A stretch of DNA of 64,000 nucleotides, from positions 31,177,087-31,241,086 of the forward strand of contig OZ029916.1 in NCBI GenBank assembly GCA_964023275.1. The letters run 5' to 3'. The notes below the pieces were generated by a model that was not told where the DNA came from, made no database searches, and worked only from the letters and a program-made list of their open reading frames with translations. How positions within the stretch are numbered: position 1 is the first letter of the stretch; every line of letters begins with the position of its first letter. This DNA comes from Norana najaformis. Taxonomy: Eukaryota > Annelida > Clitellata > Crassiclitellata > Hormogastridae. Positions 5,131 to 62,116 of this stretch are shown here, piece after piece. A program made the position numbers and the translations under genes.

Positions 5131-5193
<63 letters not shown>

Positions 5194-7726: not shown

Positions 7727-7767
<41 letters not shown>

Positions 7768-10133: not shown

Positions 10134-10173
<40 letters not shown>

Positions 10174-37760: not shown

Positions 37761-38094
37761 ACTTTCGACCTGCTTTCTTGGAAAGGTCGTCTCATGATGA
37801 ATTGTCGTCTGCGCTTCTCCGATGACGACCTCTTGCGTCAACTGACGGAGGCGTCGCTTCTCGAGATTGGCAGAGCTCTCAGCTCCGACCTTCCTCAGAA
37901 CTGGATCGCTCTGGCGACCAGACTGGGTCTAAAGAACGACGAAATCGAGCAGCTGAGGCGCGTGCCCAACCCTGGATACGAGGTTCTGAGGCGCTATAGG
38001 ACGAGATCGAATACGACGATTCGAGTTCTCAGAAATGCCTTGACTTACATGAACCGGTCCGACGTCATTGACCTCCTAAACATAGCCATGACAG
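37761..38094 (+). CDS. Gene A exon 1: Death domain
   Basis: The exon follows a long pyrimidine-rich tract (37575-37700) and a TTATCGCAG acceptor, and ends at GTGTAT in phase 1. It reads FSDDDLLRQLTEASLLEIGR, then LPQNWIALATRLGLKNDEIE, then YEVLRRYRTRSNTTIRVLRN and MNRSDVIDLL. The W-x-x-LA-x-x-LGL-x-x-x-x-I core and the final six-helix pattern are those of Death domains. These domains self-associate in apoptosis and innate-immune complexes. Confidence 0.85.
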
Positions 38095-41000
38095 GTGTAT
38101 AGAATTCATAGACTTCATGTTGTGTGCTGCTCTGTATTGTTATGTAAAGATCGAAATAGATGAGCTTTCAGGTAAGAAGATAATGTAATGCACTGTTTTT
38201 GTAACAACTACCAACAAACGTCACAGATCGTCTGCTCGATCAACCGACGCCTGTCAGCCTCCTTCTAGTTTCGACAACTTCCAATATTTGTAGACTGCTT
38301 CGTTCTCGTTCAGAGTTCTTCTGACGAAATGTCCCCCGGCCTAATATTAATATTATATCATACATAAGACTGCTATGTAGATGATGTTAAAATTAATTTT
38401 AAAAATACATATGTGCATTACCTATCTTTCTAATAGCAGTCCTACAACATGCAGATGAATTTTAATACAGCGCTAAACAAAGCTTAACGTCAGCAGAATC
38501 ATTGGAGCTCTTTGCGAGTTTTTGGATTTCGAGATTTATACAGCGCTCTAAAGTTAGCTAAATCTCGGGAACCAGGTTATTACACGCCGCTCAGTTAAAA
38601 CACAGTCGGTAGGAAGTTATGGTCAGGTTCGGTTCCAGGTCGATATCCAAGGGCCAGGCAGGTAAACAATCAGACGGCTGTATACGGTGGATGGTGTTTA
38701 GAATTGGAGCGACGAAAGGGTTAACGGGAATGAGAAGAATGGTAAGAGGAAGGGAGTTTCGTTTTACATAGAGTTGGTGCAGCGTAGACTAAAGAGTGGC
38801 AACAGAATTTCAGAGAAAGTAACTGGAGGACGAGAAAGGGAAAGGCATGAGGAAGAAGGAATAGATTCTTAGTGGCTGTATGGTGAGAAGCTGGTGTATG
38901 TGATGTGACTTTAGCAGTGTCAAGCGAAACGGCAGGTAGGGGAACTAGGTGCGACCTGGATCACTGAGGCACGGTGGATCCCTTCAGTTTAGCCCATTTG
39001 TGATGTCGCCATCTACCGAATGTGTTTGAATTACTTTAATACTGTTGCCGGCTTTGTGCACTGTGACTCTGAATGTAAGTTTTCGTTTTTATAAAGAAAA
39101 ATCGATTTTTGATCTGTCGGGCCTTATTTTCAGGTAAGGGTTATTTGCTAAATATTCAATATCACATTGTGGCAGGTCTTTGACAGAAGACCCTTTTGTG
39201 TTGGAAGAACGAACTAAGTATTGGAGGGCTGCACAACGGATTTAAGCTTTCCTTAGGGCCTACCCTCTGCATAGGGCGAGTTGGATCAGTCAGTGACGGG
39301 GCAAGTCTGACCCCGTGACACATCTTGTACGCGAAAATTATATTCCAGATGAGCTCAAAACATGCGAAAAGGAAAGCATGTTGTGTGGGGGCAAGATGGA
39401 TTACAGAGGTCCAAGATGGACCATAATTACAAATATTTTTAATTAGAAAATTCTCTCCCTCAAAAAATGATGCAATCAAATTTGTGTTCCTCATAGCTAT
39501 ATTACCTCGTTGGCTGTGAATAGAACAAAAACTGTGCTCTTGTTACACATTTATGGTTTCTTAAAACCGGAACTTCCTTACGGGATCCATCTCGCCCCTA
39601 GTTTCTATACGCGAAGGTAGACTGATGGGCAGAAGAGGGCCTAAGAAGTAAATGTTATCGTAAACGAGCAGAGCATTTATACAGTGGCTTTCTGAGTTAA
39701 TTTTATGCTATATGATGTTTAGAAATGTTCAGAAATGTGATGACATGGGCTCAAAGGCCCTAATAACGGCGCTTTGTGATGAAAGCAATAGCCTTTTGTC
39801 AATTCCTAGGTCTGTAGATGCGCAAGACAGTTGTCGTGCTTCTGATACCACTGCACCATAGTATTCGTACTCGTAATCTTTAATTGAAAATTTATTAAAG
39901 CGCTACTTAAAAGCTAAACGCAGGGCACCCGCTTATTCACAGGCGCTGCTTCCGTGTGAAGAACAAAATCTGGTTGCCAGGAGACCAAAGAGAGAATGCA
40001 ACATTATTAGAATTAGTAATTAATATTAACACAGTTAACCTTAGTTGTGATTTCTGCGTCTGCGAGATAAGAGCAGAGGAATTGTAGTTCTATAGAGTCA
40101 TATAAACGTCCCTGTTTATGTTTATATGCCTTGATAACTATACTTTAAATCCTTATTTCGGATTTAAAGTATATTTCATCTGAAGTGAATACATGTCATA
40201 GCAATAAAAATTAGAACACATTTAAACTCCAAATGCCTTGGTACCACCAACATCACCACAAGTCCATCTGGCCACCCAGCACACCTTCCCTTCGGAGTCG
40301 GTAGGTGAGTGGTAACAGCAGTATCAATATGTGAGCCAATTTGGAAGTAGTACAAGTAGCAATCTATAAATCAGTTTGGAAGTAACAGAAATAGTAACCT
40401 GGGCCAGTTTGCAAGTAGTAGTAGAAGTAGCAATATGTGAGTCAGTTTGCACGCCATCTCTTCAATCTGTGAATCAATTTGGAAGCAGTGGAAGTAGCAA
40501 TCTGTGAGTCAGTTTAAAAGTGTAAAAGTAGCAATGAGTAGCTTTTATGCTTAATTTCTAGTATTGCTGTGTAGATCCGACCGATGTGACGATTGTGATT
40601 CGTTGCGAGGAAAGATTGCATGAAGTGTCACAAGGTGGAGTTCCTGGTCTCACGACGCTACTAGAGTATGTTCGACCTTATATCCATCGCACGTTCTGGC
40701 AGGTTCTGAATAGGGGAGTGACCTTCGCTCGCCTCAACGTCGACCTATCTCCAGGATCCAATCGCTCTTGGACCTCAGCTGTTGCCGAATTCATGGTTCG
40801 TCCATATACGCAGATAAAACTCAGGCATTGTGAAGTAGGCCTAACGCAGAAATTAGAGTAATTTCGTTTTTAGATCAAACAGCTGTTTATCGTAATTATA
40901 CGCAGGGTATGAATCAATGGTTGTTTTTATGCAAAGCCACAAATCTGCAACTAATTAAGGAATTAATCCGGGGTTTTGTGGTCATTAACTGAGCAAGTGA

Positions 41001-43839
41001 GTTAACCATCGTTGCCGTTTTCTCGACTCTTTGTCATCAACTGACTGATATAAGAAACCATCTAAGGAAAGCCAAATGAACTGAAACAGATCATCAGGAG
41101 GTAGGGCTGGCAACTTAAACATTTTGCGTCTTAGCCATTCATTTGTGTCTTGGCTTTTGACCTCTCGAGATTTTGATCATGGCTTTCAAACTGACTGAAC
41201 AACATGCCTCTGGCGGATTTATTTGATAAAGCGCAGACATTTAATCTGTAGTCTTCTTGACGTAGCTGTCATATGGCGCTCAGAAATTTTGACTATTTAC
41301 ATAACATCACATTGAAAAATATCAGAAACAGAACCAAGAACAGTTAAGGTGAGAACCTTTTGGATGGGTAACTGTATGTACACACCAGAGAACGAAGATA
41401 AGGAATTTTGCTAGAATGCAAATTCTTGAACTTATGCATGCATTAAGACGAATTCGTGGATCCACTGAATGAAAGCCAGTGAATTGATTTAAATAAATAT
41501 GTTCCTTGCTCACACTGGGTTGTATAATAAATTCACGCCGTGTTTCTATTTTAGGGCCAGCAGATTGAAATTGAACTGTTTCCAGCACCACGTAGACCAG
41601 TAAGTCTTATTGTACACACTATTTGGACGCATATAAGAAGCCAGCCCGAAAGAATACAGAATATCCTATTCATTTCGTATATTTAGATAGAGGCAAAGAT
41701 GACATACTATCATATTTATTTCGTATAGGCTATTTAGATAAAGGCAAAGATGACAGACTATCCTATTTATTTCGTATATTTAGATAGAGGCAAAGATGAC
41801 AGACTAGCCTATTTATTTCGTATATTTAGATAGAGGCAAAGATGACAGACTAGCCTCTATATTTTTCCTATATTTAGATAGAGGCAAAGATGACTATAAT
41901 GTATTTATTGTGTGTTGCAGTGCATTTCATTTCACTCTAATCAAAGTATGTTGTATTGCAGTTCATTGTATTGTAACGTATCATATTGTGTTGCATTGTC
42001 TTATGTTGCATTGTATTCTAGTGTATTATATTGCATTGAATCGTAATTCACGTGTTTAAACGGCACATACTTGACGCCTCTGAATAAACGCTGCAGTACA
42101 CTGAACCGGAGCCATAAAAGCACTGTATGGGATATAACCAGGTTATGGTTTTCTTCATTGTACTGCACTGCATTGCGGCAAAGATGACAGACGATGTGTG
42201 TGTTGTGTGAAGGTGAGAGCCGAAACGGCGTTCTGTCGAAGATCGCATTACCTCGTCGAACGAAACTGTCAGAGCTACATGGAGAACGATTTGCTCTTCT
42301 TCGAGGTTGCACCCCATGCAATGCCCAGTCCCCCATCCCCTCGGACTTCGGTGCCGGCTCCACTCTCCACTTCCCCGTCGTTGTCAATCAACTTTGACAA
42401 TGGGGGGCCAGCGCAGCAGTCTCCGGATCCCCAGTCGGACGACTTTCCGTCGAGCCCTGTGTGCCAGTGTTCGTCCCCCGTTCCGCAAGAGAACTTCGCA
42501 GGGCTTCCGGGATTCCATCCGGAAATACCCACTGACGATACAAGGCGCAGTAGGGTATGTATTGATAGGCGCACGATGACGGTTCAATGCACATCATTAT
42601 TGAACGCTTTGGATGCACGTCGATAAGCATCGTTGAACGCGTTGAGACTTAATCGTTTTGTTCATGAACTGTTTATGTCTGATAGTATCGCTATCTGGAT
42701 CTGCAAGGTCCACTTGTGTATATGGCTCTGTATGTATGTCCCGGTGTCCTCGTATCTGGATGTCGATAGGTATTTGTCTGCGTGTATGTGTCTTTGTTGG
42801 TGTATTTATGCCTGCTTGAGTATGACAGCTTGTGTGCGTTTGTCTATGCTTGTGTAGGTCTGTCTGTGTGTCTGTGCGTTGTTACACAGTGACGAGTGCA
42901 TGGACTGCTCGTCATGATTCTTCTGTTATGTGTAGCAACCACGACACTCGATGTTCGGTCTGGCGTTGCGAGCGTCCACCGAATGCATATCGCTTGATAG
43001 CATGTGTGAAAAACATTCATTTTAACAAATGCACTTAAGTTACTATGAATTTAGACATAGTTCATTAGCAAATAAAGTGAAGTTGCTCTGCAATTTTGAG
43101 AAGTTCAACGAGGGACTACATACAAATCTTCAGACAAATCTATGCATATTCTATATTATACGCACTGTATTGTATTGTATTTTAAATAGACTGAAGAAGT
43201 CCTTAGGGGTAGCTTGGCGAGGGACGGTGCTTACATCTTGCGACGAACTACTAATGAGAACTGTGTGCTATCTTTATCCGTTGTGTAAGTCGCAACTCAA
43301 TTCTCTTCTATTGATTGTTTTAAGCAGTGTTTTCGAACCCGAGATATAAGAAGGTAATAAGGTAAAGGTAATACAATTGTTTACACGCCTTTGTAGAAAC
43401 TCCTCAGAAGCGAGGTCCTGAGGTTGAAGGATCATTCGGCTGAGGCGCAAATATGACCACAGCAATCCAACGACAGCACAATGACCATAGAATTTTCCTT
43501 GATACTCAAATACGGATCAAACAGGAATGGAGGGCTGAGTGAGCGCCATGTCACTAGTATTCCACGCATGGTCACCCATCCAAGTACTCACTTGGTTCAA
43601 TGTTGATTTACTTCACTGCGACAAATCTAAGTGGCCATCCATTTTAAGCATCTCTGTTGACCTCTGTTGATCAAGACTATTGCCTAAGGCCAGGCCATCT
43701 TGATTGATACGGATTGAGGACAAGGAACAAGCCGTTATTATTGTTATTATTATTATTATTATTATTTTCCCAGAGGTATATATGAACACTCAGGATTTAA
43801 AGAAGTCCGGAGAAAATGATAAATCATCTGGAACGGCTA

Positions 43840-43893
<54 letters not shown>

Positions 43894-44188
43894 TGTTGTT
43901 GTTGTGTTGCATTACTGATTGAATGATCATGCTATTGATTAATCGAACCATCTATTCGCAAGAGTGTAGCAGTTCAACGTTTGGTTTATGTGTAGATGCA
44001 ACGGAAGAGTGATTCATTTCTCTATCATGAGAAGCATCACAGAGGGATCATTTAACTACTTTATCTTTGGTTCCGACAACTTTCCCTCAGTTTACGAACT
44101 GATTGCATTCTACCGTCACCACTCCTTGTCTGCTGAAACGATGGCCATCAATACACAAGAAGTGTTCTTGACAACTCCAGTTCCTTAA
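37761..44188 (+). CDS. Gene A: Death - Ras-binding-like - SH2 protein, six coding exons
   Basis: Exons are 37761-38094, 40575-40795, 41555-41599, 42213-42554, 43190-43284 and 43996-44188. Junction phases are 1, 0, 0, 0 and 2, with a total of 1230 nt (409 aa plus TAA). An in-frame ATG at 37794 would give 398 aa, and further 5' exons are possible. Domains in order are a Death domain (about residues 20-110), a ubiquitin-like fold resembling a Raf-type Ras-binding domain (about 112-200), a Pro/Ser-rich linker, and an SH2 domain that reads to the stop. The SH2 keeps its key arginine (YILRRT in place of FLVRES). The layout suggests a cytosolic signalling adaptor without enzymatic domain. That role is inferred from domains only. 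A possible AATAAA signal lies at 44319. The paralogue is gene B, about 10 kb downstream on the same strand. Confidence 0.82.
38520..38740 (+). repeat. Dispersed repeat family R2 (in gene A intron 1)
   Basis: It has ATTTATACAGCGCTCTAAAG, CGCCGCTCAGTTAAAACACA, GGTTCGGTTCCAGGTCGATA and ACAATCAGACGGCTGTATAC, collinear with 2045-2225. Confidence 0.6.
39895..39995 (+). repeat. Dispersed repeat family R2, diverged partial copy
   Basis: It has AAAGCGCTACTTAAAAGCTA, GCTTATTCACAGGCGCTGCT and AACAAAATCTGGTTGCCAGG, similar to the first half of R2. Confidence 0.45.
40300..40545. repeat. Degenerate tandem repeat, about 6 copies
   Basis: The core is GTAGCAATCTGTGAGTCAGT + TTGGAAGTA, with period 35-50 bp, ending about 30 bp before the gene A exon 2 acceptor region. 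Confidence 0.7.
40575..40795 (+). CDS. Gene A exon 2: first part of Ras-binding-like fold
   Basis: The exon runs from a GTGTAG acceptor to a GTTCGT donor (weak, but the same donor is used in synapsin exon 5). It starts in phase 1 and ends in phase 0. It encodes DPTDVTIVIRCEERLHEVSQ, GGVPGLTTLLEYVRPYIHRT, then TFARLNVDL and RSWTSAVAEFM. It aligns to gene B exon 2 around VPG...VRP-x-I-x-R. Confidence 0.75.
41555..41599 (+). CDS. Gene A exon 3: last strand of the Ras-binding-like fold
   Basis: The 45-nt exon lies between TTCTATTTTAG and GTAAGT. It encodes GQQIEIELFPAPRRP. The equivalent 42-nt exon of gene B encodes GEQVDIQLSYTDAL. Together with the preceding W-T-S-A-V-A-E-F-M it resembles the end of the Raf RBD (W-N-T-D-A-A-S-L-I-G-E-E-L-x-V). 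Confidence 0.78.
41640..41895. repeat. 46-bp minisatellite, about 5 copies (gene A intron 3)
   Basis: The unit is TATTTATTTCGTATATTTAG, ATAGAGGCAAAGATGACAGA and CTATCC, with small indels. A remnant GGCAAAGATGACAGACGATG sits at 42177, just before the gene A exon 4 acceptor. Confidence 0.9.
42213..42554 (+). CDS. Gene A exon 4: linker before SH2
   Basis: The exon runs from a GTGTGAAG acceptor to a GTATGT donor, phase 0 at both ends. Its N-terminal part (ERNCQSYMENDLLFFEVAP) aligns with gene B exon 4 (DRNVISWIDEGSLCFGYAD). The rest is Pro/Ser-rich and likely disordered (SPPSPRTSVPAPLSTSPS), ending PEIPTDDTRRSR just before SH2. The acceptor is not strong, so the start is less certain than the end. 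Confidence 0.7.
42555..43189. other. Gene A intron 4
   Basis: GT-rich words (TGTGTCTGTG) at 42770-42880; otherwise nothing recognisable. Confidence 0.55.
43190..43284 (+). CDS. Gene A exon 5: SH2 domain, N-terminal half
   Basis: The exon lies between TTTTAAATAG and GTAAGT. It encodes TEEVLRGSLARDGAYILRRT then TNENCVLSLSV. This is the A-E-x-x-L....D-G-x-F-L-V-R-x-S....L-S-V core of SH2. The arginine of YILR is at the phosphotyrosine-binding position (beta-B5). It ends in phase 2, like gene B exon 5. Confidence 0.85.
43735..43895. repeat. (TTA)n microsatellites (gene A intron 5)
   Basis: Two TTA runs at 43735-43768 and 43840-43892 with about 70 bp between. Confidence 0.95.
43996..44188 (+). 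CDS. Gene A exon 6: SH2 domain, C-terminal half and stop
   Basis: After a TTATGTGTAG acceptor it encodes CNGRVIHFSIMRS, then FIFGSDNFPSVYELIAFYRH and HSLSAETMAINTQEVFLTTP, then VP and TAA. G-x-V-x-H-F-x-I and F-x-S-x-x-E-L-I-x-F-Y are the C-terminal signature of SH2 domains. The histidine of VIHF sits at the usual beta-D position. Confidence 0.9.
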
Positions 44189-47100
44189 ATGCAATATATA
44201 CAACGGTAACTGCGGGCATGAACGATTTCGAAGTTACCTAATCGTACATTTCTTTTACTAATCAAATGAAAATTGCACAGGAACCTACCTGATTGCTAAA
44301 TTAACACTTTGTAACGTAAATAAATGCGGCCGCTAAACCTTGCAAACATTTAAGAATTGATACAAAGGTCGTCGGCACAACATTACATGCAATCCAAAAC
44401 TTGCGTGTGCAAGAACTGGAAGCCGTTTCAAGTACCATCAAAGCAACGTGTTAACCTAAAGGAGAGGAAAGCTTTGGTGAAAATTAATGAGTTTACACGC
44501 GAAAGGAATGTTGAAAATGAAACATTTTGAAGACAGGTGGCAGAAGAACCCTGCTAGACAAGTGTTTGTATGGCTGTTGTCGCAACAAGACATAGGAACG
44601 ACTGAATAATGTCATCACGACTGTGATGAACGTCAAAGCAAGGGGGGTCCGGAGGGAAGGCCAACATATTGAATTGGGGAGAGACATGCCATTGAGTTGC
44701 CCCCAAACCGCGTTTGGAGAGGGTTGTCCACAGAACTTGTAATTGCAAATACAGTTATGCTAATGTCGCTCAAGAAAACAAAAGAGGAACAGAATTGGAA
44801 AATCGATGCAAAGGAGGAAAGCCGAAGTGAAACATCGCGAAAAAATGTGCGAAAGTGGAACAAAGGACATGAAATTTCAAGACATCAAGGCAGAGCGCGA
44901 GGAGTCATGCGAATGGCGAAAAACCGACCGAAGAAGGTGGATGACTAAAAAAGAGGTCGTCAAAAACTGTTCACCAAACAAGACCTCAACCATAGTAAAC
45001 ATAACCCCCCCTTCAACTCTTGGATCTGCCAATGCGTTAAAGAGTAAGAAACACTAAGTGGAACGACTACTACATTCCAGCCAAATCTGTAGCTGTGATC
45101 CGTTTTCAACGTTGGGAAACACGACTTTGCTTTTGTTGACTTTTTAGTATTCGACGTATTGATGACGACTGCAGTGTGGAAGCCCAGGACAGCAAAACAT
45201 GTTGCTACTGGTCCGAATCTTTAATTTTCCGAGAGTGTATCCTCCTGTCTCGTAGGTATTTAAGTTCAACATGTTGTATGTAGTAGCCAATTGGATAGAG
45301 CTCTCGGCTTGTAACGAGGAGAATACAGGGTCGAGCATTCCTGAGATGGTCATTGTGTAGGGACCTTCGGCAAGTCCTTAACTTACAATTGCTCAGCGCC
45401 GTCGATTGATGCTTAGCCATTGGATAGTGGCGCCTAATAAATGCAGAAATAATAATGTTTAATATTAATAATATTTATAATAATATTTGACATTGCTTTT
45501 AATAATTTTTAATTGAATTTTTCTTAATTATTATTGTTGTTTTCATTTTCAGTGTTTATATAACCAAGAGAAATAACATTGACATCTAATGTTTTATCAG
45601 CTATATGTTAATTGAATAAATTATTATAGTTTTACTTATTAATATTACTATTTTCATTTCTAGAGTGTTTATATAGTTAAGAAATCTAAAGAACAAATTC
45701 AGATATAAGCCTAACGGGAACATAAATCTGGATGTCTTCAACCTAACTATTGGGTGGTCATGTCCCTGCATCCCACAGCCATCGACGCCTGTGACTGTGC
45801 TGCAAGATATGAGATGTGTAAGGAAACGTTTATAGCACATTACAATGCTATCAAACATCTTTCAGTTTAGAAATAAAAACAAATGCAACGGTACTTGTTA
45901 AGTAGACTGCTGACCGATACTTGTTAACTGTACTTGTTGAGTAGACTGGTTGTTAGCATAGCGACTCATAATACCTCTTAAGGCAGTCTACACTCAGGTT
46001 GTTAGAAAATCCGTGATTAGTAAAACCTTTTACAAATGTACGAATGTATCTATGTTTGTATGTACGCACATATGCATGCATGCATGTATGTATCTATGCA
46101 CTTAATATGGTGCTTTTCTAGGACCTCGTAAAGCAGCTGCCTAACCTAGCCTAGGTGGTGTTGAAGCTAAGAACAAAAAGTTCATCTGTAAGAAAATAAT
46201 GTTCAGATTCTGTAGCTAGAAAGGTCATCAATGATGCACATATTAGCCTTAACATTATAATGTACTTATGCATATGCTCGGCTGCTCATATTCAGATTGT
46301 AAGTGCAGTTAAACAGCCAATGTGTAGGTGCACTTGAAATATGATTGGAAGCCCACTGAGAGTGTCCTCTCTGGATTTATAATCAATTTCGTCATTATTC
46401 TAAAAATTCTTATGATCATTATTGATCATATGATCTACTCGTGGTCAGGTCATCACTGTATTCTTTGCCTAATGACCTAAATAAATTTACATGCACCAGT
46501 TTGAGAGTCAAGTGAGGTGTTACTTGTTGGCCAAATTGTTTTATTTGTTTTATCAAATTGTTTAATCCTGAGAAAAATAATATTTCACAGATCACTGCAC
46601 CTGGACTGTTAATGAAAACTGTTGTAACATGTAGTTGTTAAATATGACGTCTTGAAATTTATTATAAGAAATTAGTTGACCCTGTAAGGGGTTGTTGTCC
46701 CTTTCGTCTCACCTTTGGATGCCTCTTAATTTTTGCTTCGATGAATTGTAATATTCATTTTTATTTTATGTTCAGTAAAAGGCTTCAATTAAACAAACAT
46801 TTATGCTGTGTCAGTCTTAATCAAACCTGAAGCCAATACAACAAAATGTTACCTGCATTGTGTAATGTATATATTATCAGGGTGTGATTTGTAAGAGGGC
46901 AACTGCCCCCTCTCTCACCGAGATGCATATCCCGGTCACTTGGCTTCCTACACACAGAGGTCTTCTCTCTACTATTTCCAGTCATAAATCGCATCCTGTA
47001 CATAATGTTTCATGATTATGTTGAATTTAAACAATCGTATTGTTAAATGTGGACTATGCAGAGCTTTTTGTAAGAATTACGGGCGTTGGTACTTGATTCG

Positions 47101-47630
47101 AAATGAACCGCTCATAAATTAACTGTACATAGATTAGTTATGCACATACATTAACTGCACATAGGTTAAATAAGCATGAGCTAACTTATCTGTTAACTGC
47201 ACGTACCTCTGAGACGCTGAATAAACTCTACGGTGCGCTGAATCCGGTATAACGTTACAAAAGCAAGCATAGAGTATTTATTTTAATTATAAATAATACG
47301 TGTTATCCATAAATAGATAAAATATTACTGTTACAACAACAGTATTTTCTTACAATACGTACAGCGCATTTGGTCTCAAAGAACATACTGAAGCATCCGA
47401 ATTTACGTTACTTTCAAGCTACGACAGCGTTTTGTTGTCTGGATATGGTTTAGAATATTTGCGCTGCTTTTAATAAAAACTAACAGAAAACCAAATAAAC
47501 TCCTGAACTAATTATCTTAAAACATTACTTTGTTTTAATTGGTTTATTTCTATTTATTTTTTATAAGTAAGCCAAATAGCGCAGAAAGAACCAAACTCGG
47601 TCTATTATCGTTCATGTTGGTTAGATTCAT
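44189..47630. other. Region between genes A and B, left part: no gene seen
   Basis: The gene A 3' UTR should lie at the left end (AATAAA at 44319). An 83-codon frame at 44697-44948 is lysine/glutamate-rich and unrecognised. (TGCA/TGTA) words at 46040-46095. Confidence 0.5.
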
Positions 47631-47639
47631 TTGAAATCC

Positions 47640-47825
47640 TGATGATCTGAGATGATCTGACATAATCTAGGTTGATCTGACCTGATCCAAGTTGATCTGA
47701 GCTGAGTTGATCTGACCTGATTCGATTCGATCTGATCTGAGTTGATCTGACCCTGATATGAGTTGATCTGATCTGAGTTGATCTGATCCGAACTGAGTTC
47801 ATATGATCTTATCTGATCTTGCCGA
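47640..47825. repeat. GATCTGAGTTGATCTGA tandem repeat
   Basis: About 15 degenerate copies of a 10-17 bp word built on GATCTGA and GTTGATCTGA. Confidence 0.85.
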
Positions 47826-47929
47826 TCTTTGCAACCAATATGGACATAAAGTTGTTAATGATCTGACTCCTTGCATCGCAATCACAATAAATATAGATCT
47901 CATGTCCCATGGTGGAAAGTGAGGGGCTA

Positions 47930-48140
47930 TTCATTTGCCACTGTTGGGACCTTGATTGACGAATCCCAATGCCCTGGACAAGGGGTCGGTGCATCATAGC
48001 ACTTAATGTTTCATTCCCAGTTTATGCTGGCACCAAATTCTTGCTTGATGCAGAGACAATTGTGTGCGCCAACAACTTGTCTAGGACTTTACAATGAGTC
48101 CGCTCTGCAGGAGCGAACCCACAATCGTTGGATAACAGAA
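47930..48140 (+). repeat. Dispersed repeat family R4
   Basis: It has TTGGGACCTTGATTGACGAA, CAATGCCCTGGACAAGGGGT and AATGAGTCCGCTCTGCAGGA. It is collinear with 4440-4690 at moderate identity. Confidence 0.45.
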
Positions 48141-48594: not shown

Positions 48595-48679
48595 CTAATG
48601 TGATATAATGTGATGTGATATAACGTGATGTGATATAATGTGATGTGATGTAATGTGATATAACGTGATGTGATATAAT
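48595..48679. repeat. TGATATAATGTGATG tandem repeat, left half
   Basis: A 15-bp type unit (TGATATAACGTGATG). It continues at 49367-49550 after the solo LTR. Confidence 0.92.
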
Positions 48680-51529: not shown

Positions 51530-51795
51530 GTATGTATGTATGTATATATGTATGTGTGTATGTATGTATGTACGTATGTATGTATGTATGTATGTATGCA
51601 TGTATGTAGGTAGGTTGGTAGGTAGGTAGGTCGTAGGTAGGTAGCAGTGGCGGATTTAGCTATAGGCGTGAGGATGGTTCGCCCCGCGCCTATCCCTCAG
51701 ACCAGACCCGTGCATGGTGAAGTGCCAGAATGTGGAGCCCCCACGCAAGTAATCACGGAGCCGCCACTGGTAGGTAGGTAAGTAGGTAGATGGGT
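51530..51795. repeat. (TATG)n then (GTAG)n, split by a MITE
   Basis: TATG tetramers at 51530-51607 and GTAG tetramers at 51608-51644. The GTAG run resumes at 51770 after the 125-bp element. Confidence 0.93.
51645..51769. mobile_element. 125-bp MITE with CAGTGGCGG terminal inverted repeats
   Basis: It begins CAGTGGCGGATTTAG and ends CCGCCACTG, a perfect 9-bp terminal inverted repeat. It is flanked by GTAGGTAG on each side, which fits an 8-bp hAT-type target duplication. The host site is itself a GTAG repeat, so the duplication is not proof. No coding capacity. Confidence 0.65.
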
Positions 51796-53884
51796 ACGTA
51801 TCTGGACATTTGCATAACGCCTTTTGAGAAGAACGAATAGCCACTGTTCGAGGATCTGTATCTAGGCAGTTGAACTAAGACGGTTTCATTCATTGGTTTT
51901 TAGACCTCGACAGGAAACACTGCACGGCATTCGTTCTGTATTCCTTTCGTTCGGTCGTTCATTCGCTCATTCGTCAGGGACCTAACGAAACTGATGTAAT
52001 AACTTAGGCCTATACAGTAGAAGTTGGGTATTACTTGACACACTAATTAACCTGTTAGTAGACCATGTGTTATTTGTTCTACACAGCTACTTTGTTTCCT
52101 TTGGCCTCCAAAGTAGCAAGCTAATTAGAACAAATAGCCCAAAAGCCGCTTCGGCAAGCACATATGCCCCTACATGTGACACGTGCACTTATGTGCAATG
52201 TGCCTTTTCTGCACTTGAATGCACATGTGTTTATGTTTTTATGCAGAATATAGACTACATAAGCTGACACCATTTAAATTGACTGATGAATTACGAAGTA
52301 TTTCTGAGTCGTTATTCCCCAGGGTTTCTATAATTAGACAACTATAGGCTATTCGTTACAGGCTGTAGGACTACAGAAAAGGCTTGTAGGCCTTACTGTC
52401 TTTCTGTTTTCGTGGAAATGTGTAATGACTGAAAATTAAATTTTTTGCTGGAAGAAGACCGAAACGGGAAATATCGGTCGAACTCCGCCTCTTTGCCTCA
52501 TTTTTCTTCACTTTCGGTCATGTTTTGCTATCAATAGCCCACCATCAGCCTCTCTTGTGCACAACAACAACGACAACAGACAGACAGACAGACAGACAAA
52601 CTGTGTAGCAGTACTTTGTGCTACACTGGTTCGACTGCCCGTAACAAGGTGCCGTGATTTTTTAAACTGAATAAACTTCCACCGCTTTTGAAATTTTTGT
52701 AAGGCACAACTTCACAACTTGCATGAAAATTTTACTTTTCATTAGGGCCTATAAGTGAGAGTTACCGGTTTAACGGCTGGGATGATCTTTTCACGGATTC
52801 ATTAAGTTTTGCAACAGGTGTCCAACGCTTTTCGCCAAATCCGAATTTAGGCACACGGAAACTGAAATTCTTAGGGTCAAAACCCCTCTGGCCCCCAGAT
52901 TTTCGAGTGTAACATGGTCCTCTGGCTAGGTCCCTTTGCCGATGCCCATGACAGTGTTATGTGATACGGTTTGCAGTTCGAAGTTTTCCGTTCCATGTTC
53001 TGAGAATTTTTTGGAAATCTCTAGAATCCAGAATCGAGTCAATCTGGTGGGTGAGAATCTGTGAATTTTATTAGCCGTCGTTGAATTAAGGGCCTGCAGG
53101 AAATTGAACTAATCTATGCCTGAGTCATGCTTTAGAAATTAAACTTCAATCAATTGTTACACGTTTCTAGAGCTAGGCGCTAAAAACTTGACAATTTTAT
53201 TTGAGTCTCATGCATGTTGTTTTCACTGACAACGAGCCGACGTTTCGCTTTTACGTTAACCTATAGTTTTCCGAAATTGTTATTCAGTTATATCCTTACA
53301 AGGCCGTCGTTGCCGATGGCTTCTAATTTTAAAGGAGATAAGCTTTCTCGCTGCTGTGACGTCATCGTCTATCGAGGGTATGTGTACAAAAATAGCACAT
53401 AATAGCACACACCATAAATAAAACTAAAACGCGACGTTCATATCTATATTTCCTGGTCAGTCCGGTTTAACCACTTGCAAATGAAACTGGCGTCATTCTG
53501 CAAAAACACTCTGGTGGTATGTGTATTATTATTGTTCATGGTAGTGGTAATAGTAGCAGTGTCGGTGGCGGTGGTGGTATAAGAAGATTTATAAAGCCCA
53601 AGTTTTTATAATTAAATTTCATGGCAAATGCGTTGACAGTGCGTCGGTCTAATTAGATGCCATAAACAGGTAAGTCTTCATTTTATTCCTGAAACTTCGA
53701 AAGAAAGTTCTGGAACACTGAGTTCGACAGGCAGCGCATTCAAGACCTTTGGGCCTCAGGTGCACCTAAAGTTCTTACACGCATCACGCGTCATCTTATG
53801 ACGTCCTCTAAGTAGATGTCTGAGAATCTGAACACATAAATCTGAGGCGTGGATGTATTTTCGCTAGGGTCCAAGATGCATGAA

Positions 53885-54175
53885 TTATACAAAAGCCAGG
53901 GTGAAGTAGTTAGTCTTAAGAAGTGATTTAAAAGATGATAGCGAGTTTGCAAGTCGGGCCTTTTGTGGTAGACGATTCCATATGCGAGGAACACAGCAGC
54001 TAAAGGCACGTGATCCTACAATTGTCCTGAAGCAAGGTTCTTGCAACAAACCAGTATCGGAGGAATGCAAGGATCTAGGAGGGCGATATGGAGTCAGCGA
54101 AGTATTAAGATATGATGGTAGGCCAGTGTTCCGAGCCTTAAAGGTCAAGCACGCAATTTTAAACTTAAACGCCAT
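53885..54175 (-). mobile_element. LINE fragment, C-terminal end of ORF2
   Basis: The minus-strand frame reads FKIACLTFKARNTGLPSYLN, RSLHSSDTGLL, SRAFSCCVPRIWNRLPQKAR and SLSSFKSLLKTNYFTLAF. This is the classic ORF2 C-terminus of LINEs with Y-K-A-L/...A-P-x-x-W-N-x-L-P. It lies 5' of gene B on the opposite strand. Confidence 0.85.
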
Positions 54176-54359
54176 TCAACAAGAAGTTCACGAAGGCGAT
54201 CTAATGCATTCGATGAAGAAGTACATGTAACAAATAATTATGTAATTATATATAACGGTTAATGTTAGGGCTATTGTTAATGCTTGGGTTAGCAATTGAC
54301 TGTTATCTTGCTCTAGACCGGATTACAAGTGATCTTCTTGTTATCTAAGCCTACTAGAA

Positions 54360-54450
54360 TGACGATTAATTCATTGAAAAATGAGCAGGGTCGAGGCAAG
54401 AGGGTCACTATAGTAAAGCGTGTACATTTACATTTTACATTTACATGTTT
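54360..54450 (+). mobile_element. SINE 3'-end fragment (family S1)
   Basis: It has ATTCATTGAAAAATGAGCAG, GGTCGAGGCAAGAGGGTCAC and an ACATTTTACATTTACATG tail. It lies just upstream of gene B exon 1. Confidence 0.6.
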
Positions 54451-54570
54451 CAGCCTTCTGGACCAGCAACACTCTCCTGACCATTCCAGCTGAAGGCAGG
54501 TCTTCCATCTGACCCACTGATCGTCCAACATTCCGATTTACCTGGAAAAACCAAGGATCCATTCCTATCG

Positions 54571-54925
54571 ATGGCTGACCCCCGCAATTTGCCCAAAGGC
54601 CGCGGGCCGGGGTCAGACGCGAACGATGAGGCTTACAAGATTCCCGACACGAGGCACTATAAGACGCTTATCGAGAACAACTACGACTCCCATCTTCAGC
54701 TGGGCCGGTCAATCCGTCCAGAGAAGTGCCCGGTCTTGGCCAGCCGCCTGCTGAAACCCGATGAGAGAGACGCCTCTCTAAACAAGGATGGAGTTCAGTA
54801 TTTGGGGTTGGAGGTGCTTAACGTCTGGATGGAGAAACAAGGAAGCACGATCTGGGTGCTCAAGGACACCCTGGAAAAAATGCAACTTTGGGACACTTTG
54901 GCTCTACTCGAAAAAGCCAGATTCG
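54571..54925 (+). CDS. Gene B exon 1: Death domain
   Basis: It starts at MADPRNLPKGRGPG and has an N-terminal extension (YKIPDTRHYKTLIENN). The Death domain reads LGRSIRPEKCPVLASRLL, then YLGLEVLNVWMEKQGSTIWV and LKDTLEKMQLWDTLALLE. The L-x-x-W-x-x-x-x-G-x-T...L...L-x-x-x-x-x-x-D-x-L-x-x-L-E ending is typical of Death domains. The donor is GTTAGG in phase 1. Confidence 0.8.
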
Positions 54926-57900
54926 GTTAGGATTCGTTCTCTCATTAGCGAATAACGATAATGATCTATTTAAGTTTTCACTCATACGTCAAGCCGTATC
55001 CCTAACTGACTGATTGATTGCTTGATTGCTTGATCGATTGTTTGATTGCTTGACTGACTGACAGAGACTGACTTACTGATTGACTGATTCATTCATTCAT
55101 TCGTTCTTTCATTCGTTATTCGTTCATTCATTCTCTCATTTATCCATCCACTATCCAGTCATTGATGCCAACTGTAGCTCCGTTCGTATGTTAGTCTGTC
55201 TCGACCAGCTTGCATAGTGGTTCGTTGCGTCGATATTTCGCCCATGCAGCGTCCGGGATTCGAATCCCGGTTCAACATATGAAGTTGGCAATGCATTGTC
55301 GAGCCACGTCAACCGATGTTCTCCAGTTTTTAAGCTGTCCATTTGAAGTCAACGGCCAGATCCTCAAGTACAATAAAAGCAGTCAGGTGGCGGGTTTATG
55401 GAGTTCGTTAAGGATGCATCCTCTAAATTCAGAGGACTGGCCCAATCAGTTTGTCCCTGACGCCAATTCCTCCCATTAACTCTCAATCACGGATCTTCGA
55501 CAGGACTATAACAATTGAGTTTAAATTACTTTAACATGACTAAGTATTCTTTAGTTTCGTTCTCATACCAAATTTTATCAACTTTTACTTTCCCAAACGT
55601 AACCTTACTCTATCTCCCGTTGCCTTGCCTTACTTTACCTTATCTAAAGGTCTCTAACTTACCTTATTTTGAGTCTTCTTACCCGGTCTTAGATTTTCTT
55701 ACCTCCCTTTTACATTAGGTCTTATCCGACATTACATTACCTTGTCTTCCCTTTCCTTTCCTTGCCTTACCTTTCTTTACCGTACATTACCGTACCATAG
55801 CATATGTTTTGAAAGGTGGTTGTGTTGCCTGTAGATTACGTACCACTGTACATCATGATATTTGAGGCGGGAGAAGAAACGAGCGAACCGCTTATCAAGC
55901 AAATGAAGACCGTTCCCGGTGCAAAGCCACTGGTCGACGTTGTTCGACCCATCATCTATCGCAAGCAAGGCTTAAAGCTGGCTCAGAGAGAGAAAATCCT
56001 CGATCTTCGTTTGGTTCGATCTAGCGATGGCGATCAGGAAATGATCTGGAATTCCCCCGCTAGGAACTTCAAGGTATGGCCACTTCTCGAATTAGTCAAG
56101 CGCTCCATCCACATAGTTGATGGAGCCGCTGCCTTGTAACCATTTTAGTTCACGGCCCTTACAGCTGGACGAGCTGTAAGGGCCGTGAACTAAAATGCTT
56201 ACAGGTTAATTCATAATAACAACAATAAGCGTTAATGGAAGCGCTATATAAGTATCTTATTATACTCCTGATAATATTGCCATTGGCAAAGGCGTCTACG
56301 TCTTGTTTTTAAATTAAGTTGCCCCCGCTCGAATTGGTAGCTGAGATACGCCCCTGCTAATGAATACAGTCCAGTTGCCGTAGAGGTACAGTGGTTCAGC
56401 CGAAGGGTCTTTACGAGACCTTCTCCTCCACCCTGAAGACCGCGCCTCTTAGCACAAATTTTGTGGCGCTTGATATCCATAGCTGGAATCATAAGTGTGA
56501 TCTCCAGATTTCTTCAGCGCCCAAAAAATTTACACCTACATGAAAGTTCTCCCATGGTAGCGCTATGCAAAGGGTTAGCAGGCCTACTTGGATAAACAAA
56601 CATGAATAGAATAAATGTCCGCCTTCAATGACTTTTACGATGGTCTGTTTGGTTAGCGCTGAGCCTATAATCGAAAGGCGTGCTGAATGGATTTCGTGTA
56701 ACGACCGTGGGCAAGTTTCTTGCTCCCACGTGCCTCTGTCACCACACGGTATAACTTGGCAAGCGGCCAGTCCTGTGATGCATTGATCCGGTCCGTGTCC
56801 AGAACCTTGGGATTCGTCCACTGCAGGATCAACGGAGCAGGAAGAACAGGAATGATCTCATCCCTTATGTTCCAGTATTGAACACAGCAGCTTTACTTTT
56901 ACTGCTACTGTTACTCTTTCAGTCCGTCGGAGTCAGTAAATGAGTACTTTGGGAGGATAAAAGCGGTGTCTGCTGCTTGACTGCCATGGTTGTGTTTGTG
57001 CCTCGGATCCCTTGGCCTTAGAGGAGTTCGGTCTGAAGATGCGTCCTAACTTTACCTTAACGACAACATCAATTTCACAACAGGACAATCTTTTCTTGCG
57101 GGATGTGGCGTCACAATAATTTCGCTCTAAGCTCAAAACTTACCTCTTCCAGTCTGTTTGTGGTTCTTAACATTTCCTGTTGTCTGGCTTCAGTGTGCAT
57201 TTCTGAACTTTGTAAGGAGGGCATCATCAGATTGTATAGGCCTACAACTGTATTATATTGCATTGTAAAAATTGTCAAAGTCATTGTCAACAGATAGATT
57301 CGAACTCCTGACGGTTTGACACGTTAGCATTTATCGGCCACTTCGACCCTTTAACCTTTGACATTTAACCCTTTGGCTCTTTAACACTTTGGCTTTTTAA
57401 CCGTTTGTGAATGGTAAATGTACATGTTTTTCTATAGCGACCGTATGGCCTCGACCCTGCTAATTTTTCAACGAATTAATCGGGGTGAGATCCTTCTCCT
57501 CCGCTGCACGTTTGAATTGGCGCCACGCCATTTGAGGTTCCCGTGTATGGACCGTGCTAGCCCGAGATTTGAGTCTCTGTTAGTTACAGATGTTGTAGCG
57601 CCTTTGTAAGCTTCCCAGTAGGCGCTATTTTAATAGCAAGATACATACATACAATACATACATAGATATATGTGTATATATATGCTTACAGGCATGTTTC
57701 TTTATGTAGCGACCGGCACCCGAATCTTTGGCGTTGTGACCCTTTGGCTCTTTAAACCTTTTGCCTTTCAACTTTTTGGCCCTTTAACCCTGTGGCATTT
57801 TAACTATTTGGCCCTTTAATCCTTGACCCCTTGTTTCCTTTACGCTTTGCCCTGAACTTTAAAACTGATATATAATGTGGTTGTTTTCAGGGCGAGCAAG

Positions 57901-60900
57901 TCGACATTCAGTTGTCTTACACTGACGCATTGGTAAGCCTTCAGCGTTACATTACACTACATGGCATTTCTATAGTAATCGTAATCTCAGGATTTCTTCA
58001 GCGCCCAAAAGACAAAGTCGGTGGAACCAGCTTATTCAGGAGCTCAGTCAAACACAAAATATTGGCGAGGCAGGTATGTCCAGGGTCCGTTCCAAGTTTA
58101 GATTCAAAGGTCAGACAGATAGACGGACGATTACGGCGCATGGATTTCTTTGACATAGTATTGCAATTACTTCACACGTTCAAAAATCACATCTATCAAC
58201 CATAATACATGGCATTTACAGTGCGGGTAGGCCTTCACTGCGTGTATTAGGCATAAAGCAATATGTGTGTAAGTATATATGTATATATATATATAAATTT
58301 ATGTATTGCATGTATCTATCTTGATATTAACATAGTGCCTATTAGGAAGTTTACAAAGGCGCTACAACATCTCTAACTAACATATCCAAAAAAGCGCGAC
58401 TTCATGTAGGCTGAAAATTTTCTTGAACTGTCTCAGTTGAAAAAAGAACGTATTTTCATAGGCAGATTGTTCCCAAAGGACAGACTAATGCAGGAGAGAT
58501 GACGATGAGTAGCTCCTCATGGTCTGCAGAGTCCATGTGTGGAAATTGCTCCTCATGGTCTGCAGAGTCCATGTGTGGAAATTGCTCCTCATGGTCTGCA
58601 GAACCCATGTGTGGAGACCTGCTCCTCATGGTCTGGAGAGATCATGTGTGGAGACCTGCTCCTCATGGTCTGCAGAGCCCATGATGGGAGACCTGCTCGT
58701 TCCACCTACCTGTCACTGTAGCAGTCTTAATATGAAATCACATATACTTAGGATGCATTGTTTGTTAATTCTGTTCGTCTCTTCTTCTTGACATTCATTT
58801 AGGACCTTTAAAATCTATCAGATAAAGGTAAAACGAGGTCAAGAAATATGAAAGCCGTTACCTTGCTCTATCTGCTGAACAGTTGATGTTATTGTGAATA
58901 TCAAGTAATGCAGTCTAACTGAAGTGGTAGTTACATTAGGACGACTGAAAGAAGATTATATGAACTTACGTTATATTAAAGACCTGAGTCTTGAGTTTAA
59001 TCATAAACTTAATCACATGGTCCCGGAATCGAATCAAAAAGTGTTCTGCCGTCTCGTATAGAGTACTTTTCTTAAATTACATTACATTCTCTTACATTAC
59101 ACGCCCAGGATTTATAGCTGGGCCAAAGAGATACAGATATGGGAGAAAAGATCCATGGTGCCAGTTCACCAATTCTGCTCTTCTTGCAATTTCTGATGGG
59201 GCCTTTCGCTCAAAATAGGAACTGGAATTTTAAGAATCCTATCCTGATGCCTTCTGTTCTTCTAATCTTTGTTGCCGCTCCAATTCCAAATACCATCTAC
59301 CGGAGCCGTCTATATGTCTACATGACCTTTAGATCTGGACTTGGCACCGAACCCGATCATATGTACGACGTCCATTATGACCTACTGAATCCGTCTCTAA
59401 CTATATTATCCTACTTACTTGTATTACTTTACGCTGTACTTCAGAATAAGCGCCGCACGGATCCCGGGCGAAAGGTGGAGGGCGTGACTCCGGTCGATCG
59501 CAACGTCATCAGCTGGATCGACGAGGGTTCTCTCTGCTTCGGATACGCGGATGCGGAACCCGCGACATTCGAGCGGCTTGCACATCCGGTCCAAGAAATG
59601 GGTAAAGTGTTAGATCAGCCGATGAAGGAACTGTCCTTGAAATCGGACTTGTCGCTTGAAGATCACGGGACAAAGGTGGTTCCGGAAGTGGAGGATTGGA
59701 GCGACTGCCCCGGATTCTGTATCAGCGTCGATCCGACTGTGAGTAGAGCATATGTTAAAAAGTGTTCACATGAGTTTAAATAACTTCAGTTAAGATCACG
59801 TAAAGTTAAATAAGTTCATGATAATTCAAATAACTTCAGAGTCGCTCATTTCCCTTTCATAGGCCCAGATTCGCCAGTGCTCGAATCCCATCTAGCCCTG
59901 GTTACGGAGCCACTGCATCGCAGGGCTTAGCGCTTGATTCTTACTTACTAGTTACTACTTTTGTTATTTTTGCTGTTCATTTTGTTACTAGACAGAGGAC
60001 ACTTTGTTGGAGCATTTGACGAACGATGGCGATTACGTGATTCAACAGACTCAAGTCAGTGGACAGAAGAACCTCAAACTCAGCGTCAGGTAGGCCGAAG
60101 CCTACTATAGGCTCAAAGGCACTTACGTTTTACATTAAATTTACATTGGATTACACGTTTTCACAAGAATTCAGCCTAAGGTCAGGAGTGTGGCCCTTGG
60201 CATGTGTCACAAGATAATGCGCTACTGCACCTAAATTACGAGCTGATCAGCTGCGCTGTATAACAGAATTACTGATGCGAACATAATTCAGTGAGTTAAC
60301 TTTGTTAAGTGGCTGTGTGGTATCAACAGTTAGGAAATTAGATTTGGATGGATTTAAGAGCAGTCCATTTTCTGCCATCCAGGACTGACACGGATAAAGA
60401 TCTGAGATAATGAATGAGATATAGAATGAGCGAGCTGGAAGATGAAAGATTGTCGGAAGAAATGTAGAGCTGAGTATCATCAGTGTAAATTCGAACTCAG
60501 CAAGCAGGTCAAGAACAGAAGGTGCAGTTACTTTGCCGTTGTCCATAAAGTACATAATGTCGCTGTGAACAGAAGAAGCGCTATCCAAGCACAATGAAAT
60601 TTGCTATATGCTGACGACTAGTAAGGGAGAAGGACTTTGAAAACAGACGCATTTTAACGACACGGTTCAAGAAGTTTCGACATGACCTTAAAGTTTGAAA
60701 TTGGCCGATAGTTGGCATAGTGTCAGTAACCCAGAGACGGCATTTCAGCAAAAGATAGACCAACGCATGGGACAAACATGAAGGCAAAGAGCCCTGAACC
60801 AGCAACAGATTGATTAACGTCACGATGTTGCATATCAAAACAGCTTTTGATAAGGTAATTTGGAATTGCATCTAGGAGGCAGGAGAAGAGAAAAAATTAC

Positions 60901-62116
60901 CAGATTTCATCCAAAGTTGCGAAAGCAAGGGGTTTGAGAGCAGGTAACGGGAAGTTAGAAGATGAAAAGCCATTTGATAATGGAATACCAGATAATTTAG
61001 CCTAATATTGGATATTTTGTCACCAAAAAGTGAATGAGTGTCCGCCAGAGCGAATGGTGAGGAAGTTTTCAGTAACGTGGATGGTGTGCACCTAAGAGTG
61101 CCATACTAAGGCCTAGGCAAGACAAGTTTTCTGAGATCAAGTTTGTAAGAATAGAGGACAAATTTCGAAACAATTTAGCATTGTTCCTTGTTCCTTGACA
61201 CGCACGTGACAGAAGGGTAGTCGACAGCTTGCGTTACAATTGGCTACGATGACGTCTAGCATCAGCAATTTCAGAATTATACCAGGGTTTCGGGTTACGA
61301 GTGGCACTTTTCTGGACTTAAGAGGAATGTGCTTATCAAGCAATTCAATTAGATTATGCCTATGATTGGAGTCGGCAAGAGAGGGCACACATTTGAGTCA
61401 GAAGAAGGAAGTGATGAGTAAACGTAATTTTTGAAAGTCCGTACGCCTAATTATGTTAAGCCTAATTTATGTCAAGCCCGGAAAGTGAAAACAGTGTACT
61501 TCGGTGGTGGTTTATTAGGTAAGGCAATAGAAATAACGATAGTAAGATGGTCGAAAAAATAAAATTCCTTAATTAGGATGTTTCGAATTATGTTACAATC
61601 AGATCTTGTCAACCAGAAGACCAAGAATGTGACCTTGGGCATGTGTCAGTATGGTAATGCGCTGCTTTAGATCGAAAGAGTTCAAGAGTTCATGGAAGGT
61701 TGGAGCTGTATGAACATTTGTATATTCACATGAATGTTAAAGTCGCCAATTATGATGATGATGATCGGTGATCACGACAAAAAGACCAAAACCTAGGTGA
61801 TGGCGATATTGTTATAAAAACCAACACATAAATAAAAGACATAAAGAATTAAATAATAATCCAAGGCCATAAGTTGTAACATTATTTTCGATTCAGGCAA
61901 GGAGAGCGAGTGTTCCAGTACCCGATCGTCACTCAGGTCAATCGCGAGAAGTGCTATCTGATCGAAGGTGGCGACCACTTCGTCAGTTCTCTTCCTCAGC
62001 TCATCGCCTTCTACACGACCAACAGCCTCCATCCTCTGATGCCAACTCCTGCCGCAGCAGCAGAAGACTCAATCACCCCAATTTACCTGAAGAACCCTGT
62101 TTCAAATGTCAACTGA
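54571..62116 (+). CDS. Gene B: Death - Ras-binding-like - SH2 protein, six coding exons
   Basis: Exons are 54571-54925, 55835-56073, 57891-57932, 59445-59738, 59992-60089 and 61897-62116. Phases 1, 0, 0, 0 and 2 are identical to gene A. From the ATG at 54571 the total is 1248 nt (415 aa plus TGA). The frame is open upstream to 54481 and a CAG acceptor at 54487-54489 could replace this start. Order of domains is as in gene A. The SH2 core reads YVIQQT where FLVRES is usual, so the phosphotyrosine-binding arginine is glutamine. Sequence identity to gene A is low but collinear, so the duplication is old. Introns carry a perfect hairpin (56141-56197), a 36-bp minisatellite and an antisense LINE fragment. 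Confidence 0.83.
55005..55170. repeat. GATTGCTT and ATTC tandem words (gene B intron 1)
   Basis: TGATTGCTTGAT words then CATTCATT/CGTTC words. Pyrimidine-rich CCTTAC words follow at 55600-55790 before the exon 2 acceptor. Confidence 0.75.
55205..55295 (+). repeat. tRNA-like head, probably of a second SINE family
   Basis: It has GCTTGCATAGTGGTTCGTTG followed by CCGGGATTCGAATCCCGG, a perfect T-arm and B box. Acceptor and anticodon stems do not pair well. A related block at 63190-63260 has GAGTTTCGAATCCCGGTGCA and then TCAAGTTGAAG, like CAACATATGAAG here. Confidence 0.5.
55835..56073 (+). CDS. Gene B exon 2: first part of Ras-binding-like fold
   Basis: The exon lies between TTGCCTGTAG and GTATGG. 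It encodes DYVPLYIMIFEAGEETSEPL, TVPGAKPLVDVVRPIIYRKQ, then KILDLRLVRSSDGDQEMIWN and SPARNFK. The order strand, strand, helix, strand, strand is that of a ubiquitin-like fold. The arginine of IIYRKQGL lies where Raf has its Ras-contacting arginine (KVRGL). Confidence 0.78.
56141..56197. repeat. Perfect inverted repeat, 26-bp arms, 5-bp loop (gene B intron 2)
   Basis: The left arm 56141-56166 starts CATTTTAGTTCACGGCCC. The right arm 56172-56197 is its exact reverse complement. The loop is GGACG. It starts 67 bp after the exon 2 donor. Confidence 0.97.
56690..56830 (-). repeat. Dispersed repeat family R4, inverted partial copy
   Basis: On the minus strand it reads GACGAATCCCAAGGTTCTGG and ends with a CCGTGGTGTGACAGAGG-like segment, related to the start of R4. 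It lies in gene B intron 2. Confidence 0.35.
57110..57290 (+). mobile_element. LINE 3'-tail fragment
   Basis: It has the same tail as 29945-30060, with ACTTACCTCTTCCAGTCTG and TTCTGAACTTTGTAAGG, followed by an AT-rich TGTATTATATTGCATTG end. It lies in the intron between gene B exons 2 and 3. Confidence 0.55.
57415..57610 (-). mobile_element. SINE copy (family S1)
   Basis: The plus strand shows CTATAGCGACCGTATGGCCT, CGACCCTGCTAATTTTTCAA, GAATTGGCGCCACGCCATTT and GGACCGTGCTAGCCCGAGAT, the reverse complement of the S1 body. The head is incomplete. It lies in gene B intron 2. Confidence 0.68.
57891..57932 (+). CDS. Gene B exon 3: last strand of the Ras-binding-like fold
   Basis: The 42-nt exon lies between GTTGTTTTCAG and GTAAGC, phase 0 at both ends. 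It encodes GEQVDIQLSYTDAL, which aligns to GQQIEIELFPAPRRP of gene A and to the final G-E-E-L-x-V strand of Raf-type RBDs. It was found from the expected phase and partner exon in gene A. Confidence 0.78.
57970..58145 (+). repeat. Dispersed repeat family R2 (in gene B intron 3)
   Basis: It has ATTTCTTCAGCGCCCAAAAG, GGAACCAGCTTATTCAGGAG, CTCAGTCAAACACAAAAT and AAGGTCAGACAGATAGACGG, collinear with 2045-2225. Confidence 0.6.
58510..58695. repeat. 36-bp minisatellite, 5 copies (gene B intron 3)
   Basis: The unit is TGCTCCTCATGGTCTGCAGA + GTCCATGTGTGGAAAT. The period is a multiple of three and all copies are open in one frame (SSWSAESMCGNC). No splice sites join it to gene B in frame, so I treat it as non-coding. 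Confidence 0.9.
59445..59738 (+). CDS. Gene B exon 4: linker before SH2
   Basis: The exon lies between TGTACTTCAG and GTGAGT, phase 0 at both ends, 98 codons. It begins NKRRTDPGRKVEG, then PVDRNVISWIDEGSLCFGYA, then an acidic, likely flexible stretch, ending VEDWSDCPGFCISVDPT. The tryptophan near the end may be the W that opens SH2 domains. Confidence 0.78.
59992..60089 (+). CDS. Gene B exon 5: SH2 domain, N-terminal half, arginine missing
   Basis: The exon lies between TTTTGTTACTAG and GTAGGC and ends in phase 2. It encodes TEDTLLEHLTNDGDYVIQQT then QVSGQKNLKLSVR. It aligns residue by residue to gene A exon 5. The G-x-F-L-V-R position reads G-D-Y-V-I-Q, so the conserved arginine is replaced by glutamine. 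Confidence 0.87.
60175..61790 (-). mobile_element. LINE fragment inside the SH2-splitting intron of gene B
   Basis: Minus-strand pieces give IIGDFNIHVN (endonuclease end, near 61735-61790), a HMPKVTFLVF block, LIELLDKHIPLKSRKV, SLPSCLSHALVYLLLKCRLW, FLNRVVKMRLFSKSF and WMAENGLLLNPSKSNFLTVD. This order (endonuclease then RT) is a LINE ORF2 with many breaks. The block 60175-60240 repeats the endonuclease-end sequence seen at 61615-61680, so two insertions or a rearrangement are present. Confidence 0.8.
61897..62116 (+). CDS. Gene B exon 6: SH2 domain, C-terminal half and stop
   Basis: After a TTCGATTCAG acceptor it encodes QGERVFQYPIVTQVNREKCY, then LIEGGDHFVSSLPQLIAFYT and TNSLHPLMPTPAAAAEDS, then a short tail and TGA. 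R-V-x-Q-Y-x-I and F-x-S-L-x-x-L-I-x-F-Y are SH2 C-terminal features. The usual histidine of the beta-D strand is glutamine here. Confidence 0.9.

Follow-up and report, generated by a model that had tools for sequence, protein, structure and literature searches.

Death-fold complexes are normally reached via receptors or sensors bearing a death-fold domain of their own. An SH2 domain together with a domain of the Ras-association type can be found in RIN and in the Grb7/10/14 adaptors, which are not known to contain a Death domain and carry VPS9 or PH domains. Regarding associations of death-fold and SH2 domains, a passage on the 'NCOA6 clade' lists SH2 as one of the C-terminal domains present after a Death-like domain and TRADD-N in the sponge Amphimedon (PMC8195603). 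New death-fold domain combinations are a subject of an amphioxus paper, which also describes engineered DED-SH2 and DED-PTB adaptors (Howard 2003) that turn tyrosine-kinase signals to apoptosis (PMC2575513). Given the sponge proteins and the engineered adaptors, as far as these passages present them, the joining of a death-fold domain to SH2 is not wholly new. The claim of a preliminary description of the present locus, that no characterised protein combines Death and SH2, may stand, but predicted sponge proteins with SH2 after a Death-like domain had already been mentioned (PMC8195603, same passage). A thin check of the open-licence literature for phrases of the 'Death-SH2' type returned no paper from 2005-2015.

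The window, i.e., the whole 64-kb stretch of Norana najaformis DNA analysed here, harbors two genes in tandem on the plus strand, each with six coding exons (Table 1). By exon joining, gene 1 (37794-44188) gives a predicted product of 398 aa and gene 2 (54571-62116) one of 415 aa. All introns are GT/AG (10/10 across both genes) and their phases are 1,0,0,0,2 in each. The two six-exon genes initially described are both present. The span first given, 37761 to 62116, is right at its end, where the stop codon of gene 2 finishes; its start lies after an AG that is a possible splice acceptor, 33 bases 5' of the ATG at 37794 and in the same frame. An AATAAA poly-A signal follows gene 1 at 44319. Some joints are less certain: the exon 2 donor of gene 1 (40795, ATG/GTTCGT) is weak, and the start of its exon 4 is uncertain, with several possible in-frame acceptors and a weak one at 42213.

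Table 1. Coding exons of the two tandem genes (positions in the window) and exons of the third copy (positions in the C9 segment).
Feature	Position	Strand	Evidence
Gene 1 exon 1, Death domain	37794..38094	+	Pfam PF00531 3.7e-10 on exon, above cut-off; ends phase 1
Gene 1 exon 2, most of putative RBD-like middle domain	40575..40795	+	Exons 2-3 29% identical to gene 2; no Pfam match
Gene 1 exon 3, middle-domain end (GQQIEIEL)	41555..41599	+	Phase 0-0; like exon 3 of gene 2 and C9
Gene 1 exon 4, Pro/Ser-rich linker and SH2 start	42213..42554	+	Open frame up to good donor
Gene 1 exon 5, SH2 first half, FLVR-type Arg (GAYILRRT)	43190..43284	+	Alignment to PLC-gamma-2 SH2 FLVR stretch
Gene 1 exon 6, SH2 second half and stop	43996..44188	+	Pfam SH2 1.8e-9 over exons 5-6
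Gene 2 exon 1, divergent Death domain	54571..54925	+	31% to gene 1; AF2 and Foldseek
Gene 2 exon 2, putative RBD-like middle domain	55835..56073	+	AF2 strand-strand-helix-strand-strand, pLDDT 68.7
Gene 2 exon 3, middle-domain end (GEQVDIQL)	57891..57932	+	Phase 0-0; like gene 1 exon 3
Gene 2 exon 4, linker	59445..59738	+	Phase 0-0; GT/AG sites
Gene 2 exon 5, SH2 first half, Gln at FLVR Arg position (GDYVIQQT)	59992..60089	+	Alignment to gene 1
Gene 2 exon 6, SH2 second half and stop	61897..62116	+	19.5 bits over exons 5-6, below 21-bit cut-off
C9 Death exon	1165-1465		Search match, then exon placement
C9 middle exons	2023-2240 and 3075-3116		By eye/script
C9 linker exons	from 3446 (end uncertain) and 4576-4690		By eye/script
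C9 SH2 exons	5938-6044 and 6512-6728		Second half by tblastn

The products of the two genes align by BLASTP at 5e-18, with 107 of 384 residues identical (28%), and four of their five introns are placed at identical alignment columns; the third is offset by 10 columns within a gapped linker. Taken separately, the Death, middle and SH2 parts are each more similar between the genes than all 5000 shuffles, and the similarity of the linkers does not exceed that of shuffles (0.125; 5000 shuffles). Over 363 aligned codons, mismatches at codon positions 1, 2 and 3 number 196, 176 and 237, and the third-position GC is 0.56 in gene 1 and 0.64 (0.637) in gene 2 versus an intron GC of 0.39 and 0.41; on both counts, the two genes fit coding sequence. 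Within the otherwise unlike exon 4 linkers, a Tyr with acidic neighbours is aligned (SYMEND in gene 1, GYADAE in gene 2) and is a possible phosphorylation site. The linker of gene 1 also displays six SP/TP within 96 aa, which are possible sites for proline-directed kinases.

Other features can be found in the window. Exons of a synapsin gene lie on the minus strand at about 5022-17552 (best tblastn match to a mammalian synapsin domain 8.8e-17), and open frames at about 8000-9700 and 25849-26923 resemble, by reading, fragments of non-LTR retrotransposon reverse transcriptase. An inverted repeat seen by eye at 56143-56195, shortly 3' of gene 2 exon 2, has arms of 24 bases separated by a 5-base spacer.

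A third copy is present on another chromosome (G000:C9, about 1.0242-1.0297 Mb). The Death exon of gene 1, searched against its own genome (608,420,607 bases, 17 contigs), matched itself, a single strong relative, which lies on C9 (E 3.4e-10), and, weakly, four further places; gene 2 was absent from these matches, such an exon-by-exon search missing weak-scoring exons. With tblastn in 20 kb, an exon for the second half of SH2 was detected (3e-5) 5.1 kb downstream of the C9 Death exon and on its strand, the remaining exons having been placed by eye and script rather than found by search. Exon order and phases are as in genes 1 and 2, with one extra linker intron. The joined C9 SH2 scores 37.1 bits with a profile of the two genes, versus a shuffle maximum of 9.9, and the C9 middle domain 9.1 bits versus 8.8. 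Among the evidence that the exons belong to a single gene, this copy is the strongest, and the predicted family is small, with three members found in one animal. Elsewhere in the genome, four Death matches of a different type lie near one another at G000:C2:46992667-47074160, and downstream of two of them neither SH2 nor middle exon of the Death-SH2 family was found. Six SH2 matches, each to the second half of the profile, are spread over 226 kb at G000:C8:30389029-30615317, perhaps a multiplied gene, with no Death or middle exon of the family beside them.

With regard to the Death domain, the curated Pfam cut-off (PF00531, 22.6 bits) is exceeded by gene 1 (40.2 bits on the exon, 6.2e-9 in the whole-protein scan) and by C9 (29.7 bits, 7e-7), whereas in gene 2 neither the exon nor the whole protein matches PF00531. 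Standing at 31% to gene 1, the gene 2 Death exon is modelled by AF2 as a low-confidence bundle of seven helices (pLDDT 57, gene 1 being the only aligned sequence), and 31 of the 41 Foldseek matches to this model are death-fold proteins by name, all with E above 1. A PDB profile search with both Death domains ranked NRADD, ankyrin-3 and RIPK1 first. These first-ranked relatives differ in architecture, and to our knowledge none of them has an SH2 domain. In both genes an in-frame stop lies directly past the donor of the Death exon, at the third codon in gene 1 and the second in gene 2 (the joint codon counted), so that a Death-only product may be generated by intron retention.

In SH2 domains, a His downstream of the FLVR Arg helps to bind phosphotyrosine. 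The curated Pfam cut-off (PF00017, 21 bits) is exceeded by gene 1 (38 bits over exons 5-6, 1.9e-9 in the whole-protein scan) and by C9 (25.2 bits, 1.8e-5; the C9 pieces were scanned separately), and the SH2 part of gene 2, taken alone, falls just below it, SH2 not being listed in the whole-protein scan of this gene. Neither Death nor SH2 was thus listed for gene 2 in the profile search on spliced products, in which both were significant for gene 1. The same domain order, claimed at the outset for both genes, is accordingly borne out by Pfam in gene 1, while in gene 2 it follows from homology to gene 1 and not from independent profile matches. A PDB profile search with both SH2 domains placed PLC-gamma-2, PLC-gamma-1 and SYK first. 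For gene 2 by itself, PDB chains went unmatched up to E 10. Where PLC-gamma-2 reads GTFLVRES, gene 1 keeps the Arg in its FLVR stretch, together with the downstream His (RVIHFSI), and by alignment a Ser, which may speak somewhat against phosphotyrosine binding, stands two residues past this His. C9 displays both residues (GWYLIRV, KLKHFEI). In gene 2, Arg and His are lost, with Gln at both aligned positions (the second in RVFQYPI). According to passages of an SH2 review, the FLVR Arg is conserved in all but 3 of more than 120 human SH2 domains, its point mutation leads to an affinity loss of about 1000-fold, and basic residues at two further positions are frequent helpers (PMC7530234). Given the cost of losing this Arg, as stated there, the SH2 domains of gene 1 and C9, which keep Arg and His, should bind phosphotyrosine and that of gene 2 should not. 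Because of the Gln at its FLVR Arg position, gene 2 probably does something different from gene 1.

As for the middle domain, it is quite possible, if short of probable, that these are real Death-SH2 proteins in which the middle is some other small domain without Ras binding, i.e., plain two-ended adaptors. In keeping with this, the profile of the RAF-like RBD (PF02196, cut-off 25.7 bits) is silent in all three genes though RAF1, run against this Pfam library, reaches 97.8 bits, Pfam and PDB profiles together gave nothing for the middle domain but one chance-level match, and the four genome matches of PF02196 at E 0.001 all lie outside the window. Local alignments to RAF proteins are unevenly supported, with shuffle fractions for genes 1 and 2, respectively, of 0.014 and 0.007 against RAF1, 0.078 and 0.025 against BRAF, and 0.0085 and 0.48 against ARAF. 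HHalign likewise gave weak results, namely a probability of 3.3% (a score reached by 2 of 200 column shuffles) and, with three sequences, of 1.9% (4 of 300). Against a domain unrelated to RAF stands the motif W-x8-G-[EQ]-[EQ], common to the three genes and RAF1 and aligned in 4/4 alignments; it occurs once in 86794 residues of the six-frame open reading frames of the window, the genes' own copies spanning two exons. One of the two four-sequence alignments is moreover colinear through the helix, RAF1 SLHDCLMKAL lining up with TLLEYVRPYI, PLVDVVRPII and ELWDGLLPCL, which it does not in the other one, nor in either three-sequence alignment (0/2). The strand and helix order predicted for gene 2 exon 2 alone also fits, the strand expected from exon 3 being missing in the model. 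For the Ras-binding-like call made earlier, RAF-like motifs and the predicted strand and helix order speak in favour, a profile match and consistent shuffle support being absent, and an RBD-like middle domain of RAF type is suggested only.

On balance, we lean slightly towards the reading that the genes encode cytosolic Death-(RBD-like)-SH2 adaptors leading from phosphotyrosine to death-fold complexes, with gene 2 as a phosphotyrosine-independent partner, because Death and SH2 exceed the Pfam cut-offs in two of the three genes (in gene 1 within one conceptual product, in C9 as pieces). No catalytic domain was recognised by Pfam in the products. A very improbable alternative is that the Death exon belongs to one gene, either forming a short gene by itself or ending one, and the middle and SH2 exons to another, so that no joined protein exists. 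The stop just after the Death donor in both genes would suit it, as would the weak donor of gene 2 exon 1 (54925, TCG/GTTAGG). However, the open frame of gene 1 exon 2 has no ATG ahead of the domain, the phase-1 joint fits in 3/3 copies, and Death and SH2 exons are found together on another chromosome too; among alternative first exons running from an ATG to a phase-1 donor (43 and 12 candidates in the first introns of the two genes), the highest-scoring pair (22) was judged chance-like. The presence of Death and SH2 in one chain, as initially proposed, is well supported at the gene level, with reinforcement from the third gene. Gene 2 might also be a decaying copy without function, to which its Death and SH2 scores below the profile cut-offs and the loss of key SH2 residues would point, but its 415 codons are open in one frame, with GT/AG at all joints and the third-position GC given above, and decay seems improbable.

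In the adaptor reading, the C-terminal SH2 domain of gene 1 or C9 would dock on an activated receptor or scaffold at a phosphotyrosine site, the middle domain, perhaps ubiquitin-like and of RAF-RBD type, would provide a further contact, with a small GTPase or a partner of that sort, and the N-terminal Death domain would gather other Death proteins through death-fold assembly. Gene 2 would act as a phosphotyrosine-independent partner or brake, e.g., by Death-Death pairing with gene 1. The fuller proposal of a natural, lineage-specific Death-RBD-SH2 family that joins, in one chain, tyrosine phosphorylation and Ras to death-fold assembly and in which an active member is accompanied by a phosphotyrosine-blind tandem regulator is speculative and rather unlikely to hold in all its parts. 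Through a protein that reads phosphotyrosine with SH2 and has a Death domain of its own, tyrosine kinases would be linked in a single step to death or innate-immune complexes, which growth-type signals could then enter directly; paralogs with and without the phosphotyrosine pocket offer a ready comparison.

Compared with known systems, the absence of VPS9 and PH from the Pfam scan of the gene 1 and gene 2 products distinguishes them from RIN and Grb7/10/14. As in the Amphimedon proteins, a death-fold domain comes first, a small alpha-beta domain (predicted in Norana) second and SH2, a possible C-terminal domain of the sponge proteins, last, but the second domain there is TRADD-N, of RRM-like fold according to the passage cited (PMC8195603; a comparison by description and not by sequence), whereas the Norana middle domain has the modelled strand-strand-helix-strand-strand order in exon 2 together with RAF-like motifs. 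A Pfam match to TRADD-N was not found up to E 10 in any of the three genes, the filters dropping weak matches and the structure model being weak enough to allow for a TRADD-N domain as well. Within a limited literature search, what is new is that one animal has three genes combining Death, an RBD-like domain and SH2, the SH2 of one of them being apparently disabled. The engineered DED-SH2 and DED-PTB adaptors, as outlined in PMC2575513, likewise join a phosphotyrosine module to a death-fold module, but are artificial and have DED instead of Death; if the fuller proposal is true, the Death-RBD-SH2 family would be the evolved counterpart of these engineered switches.
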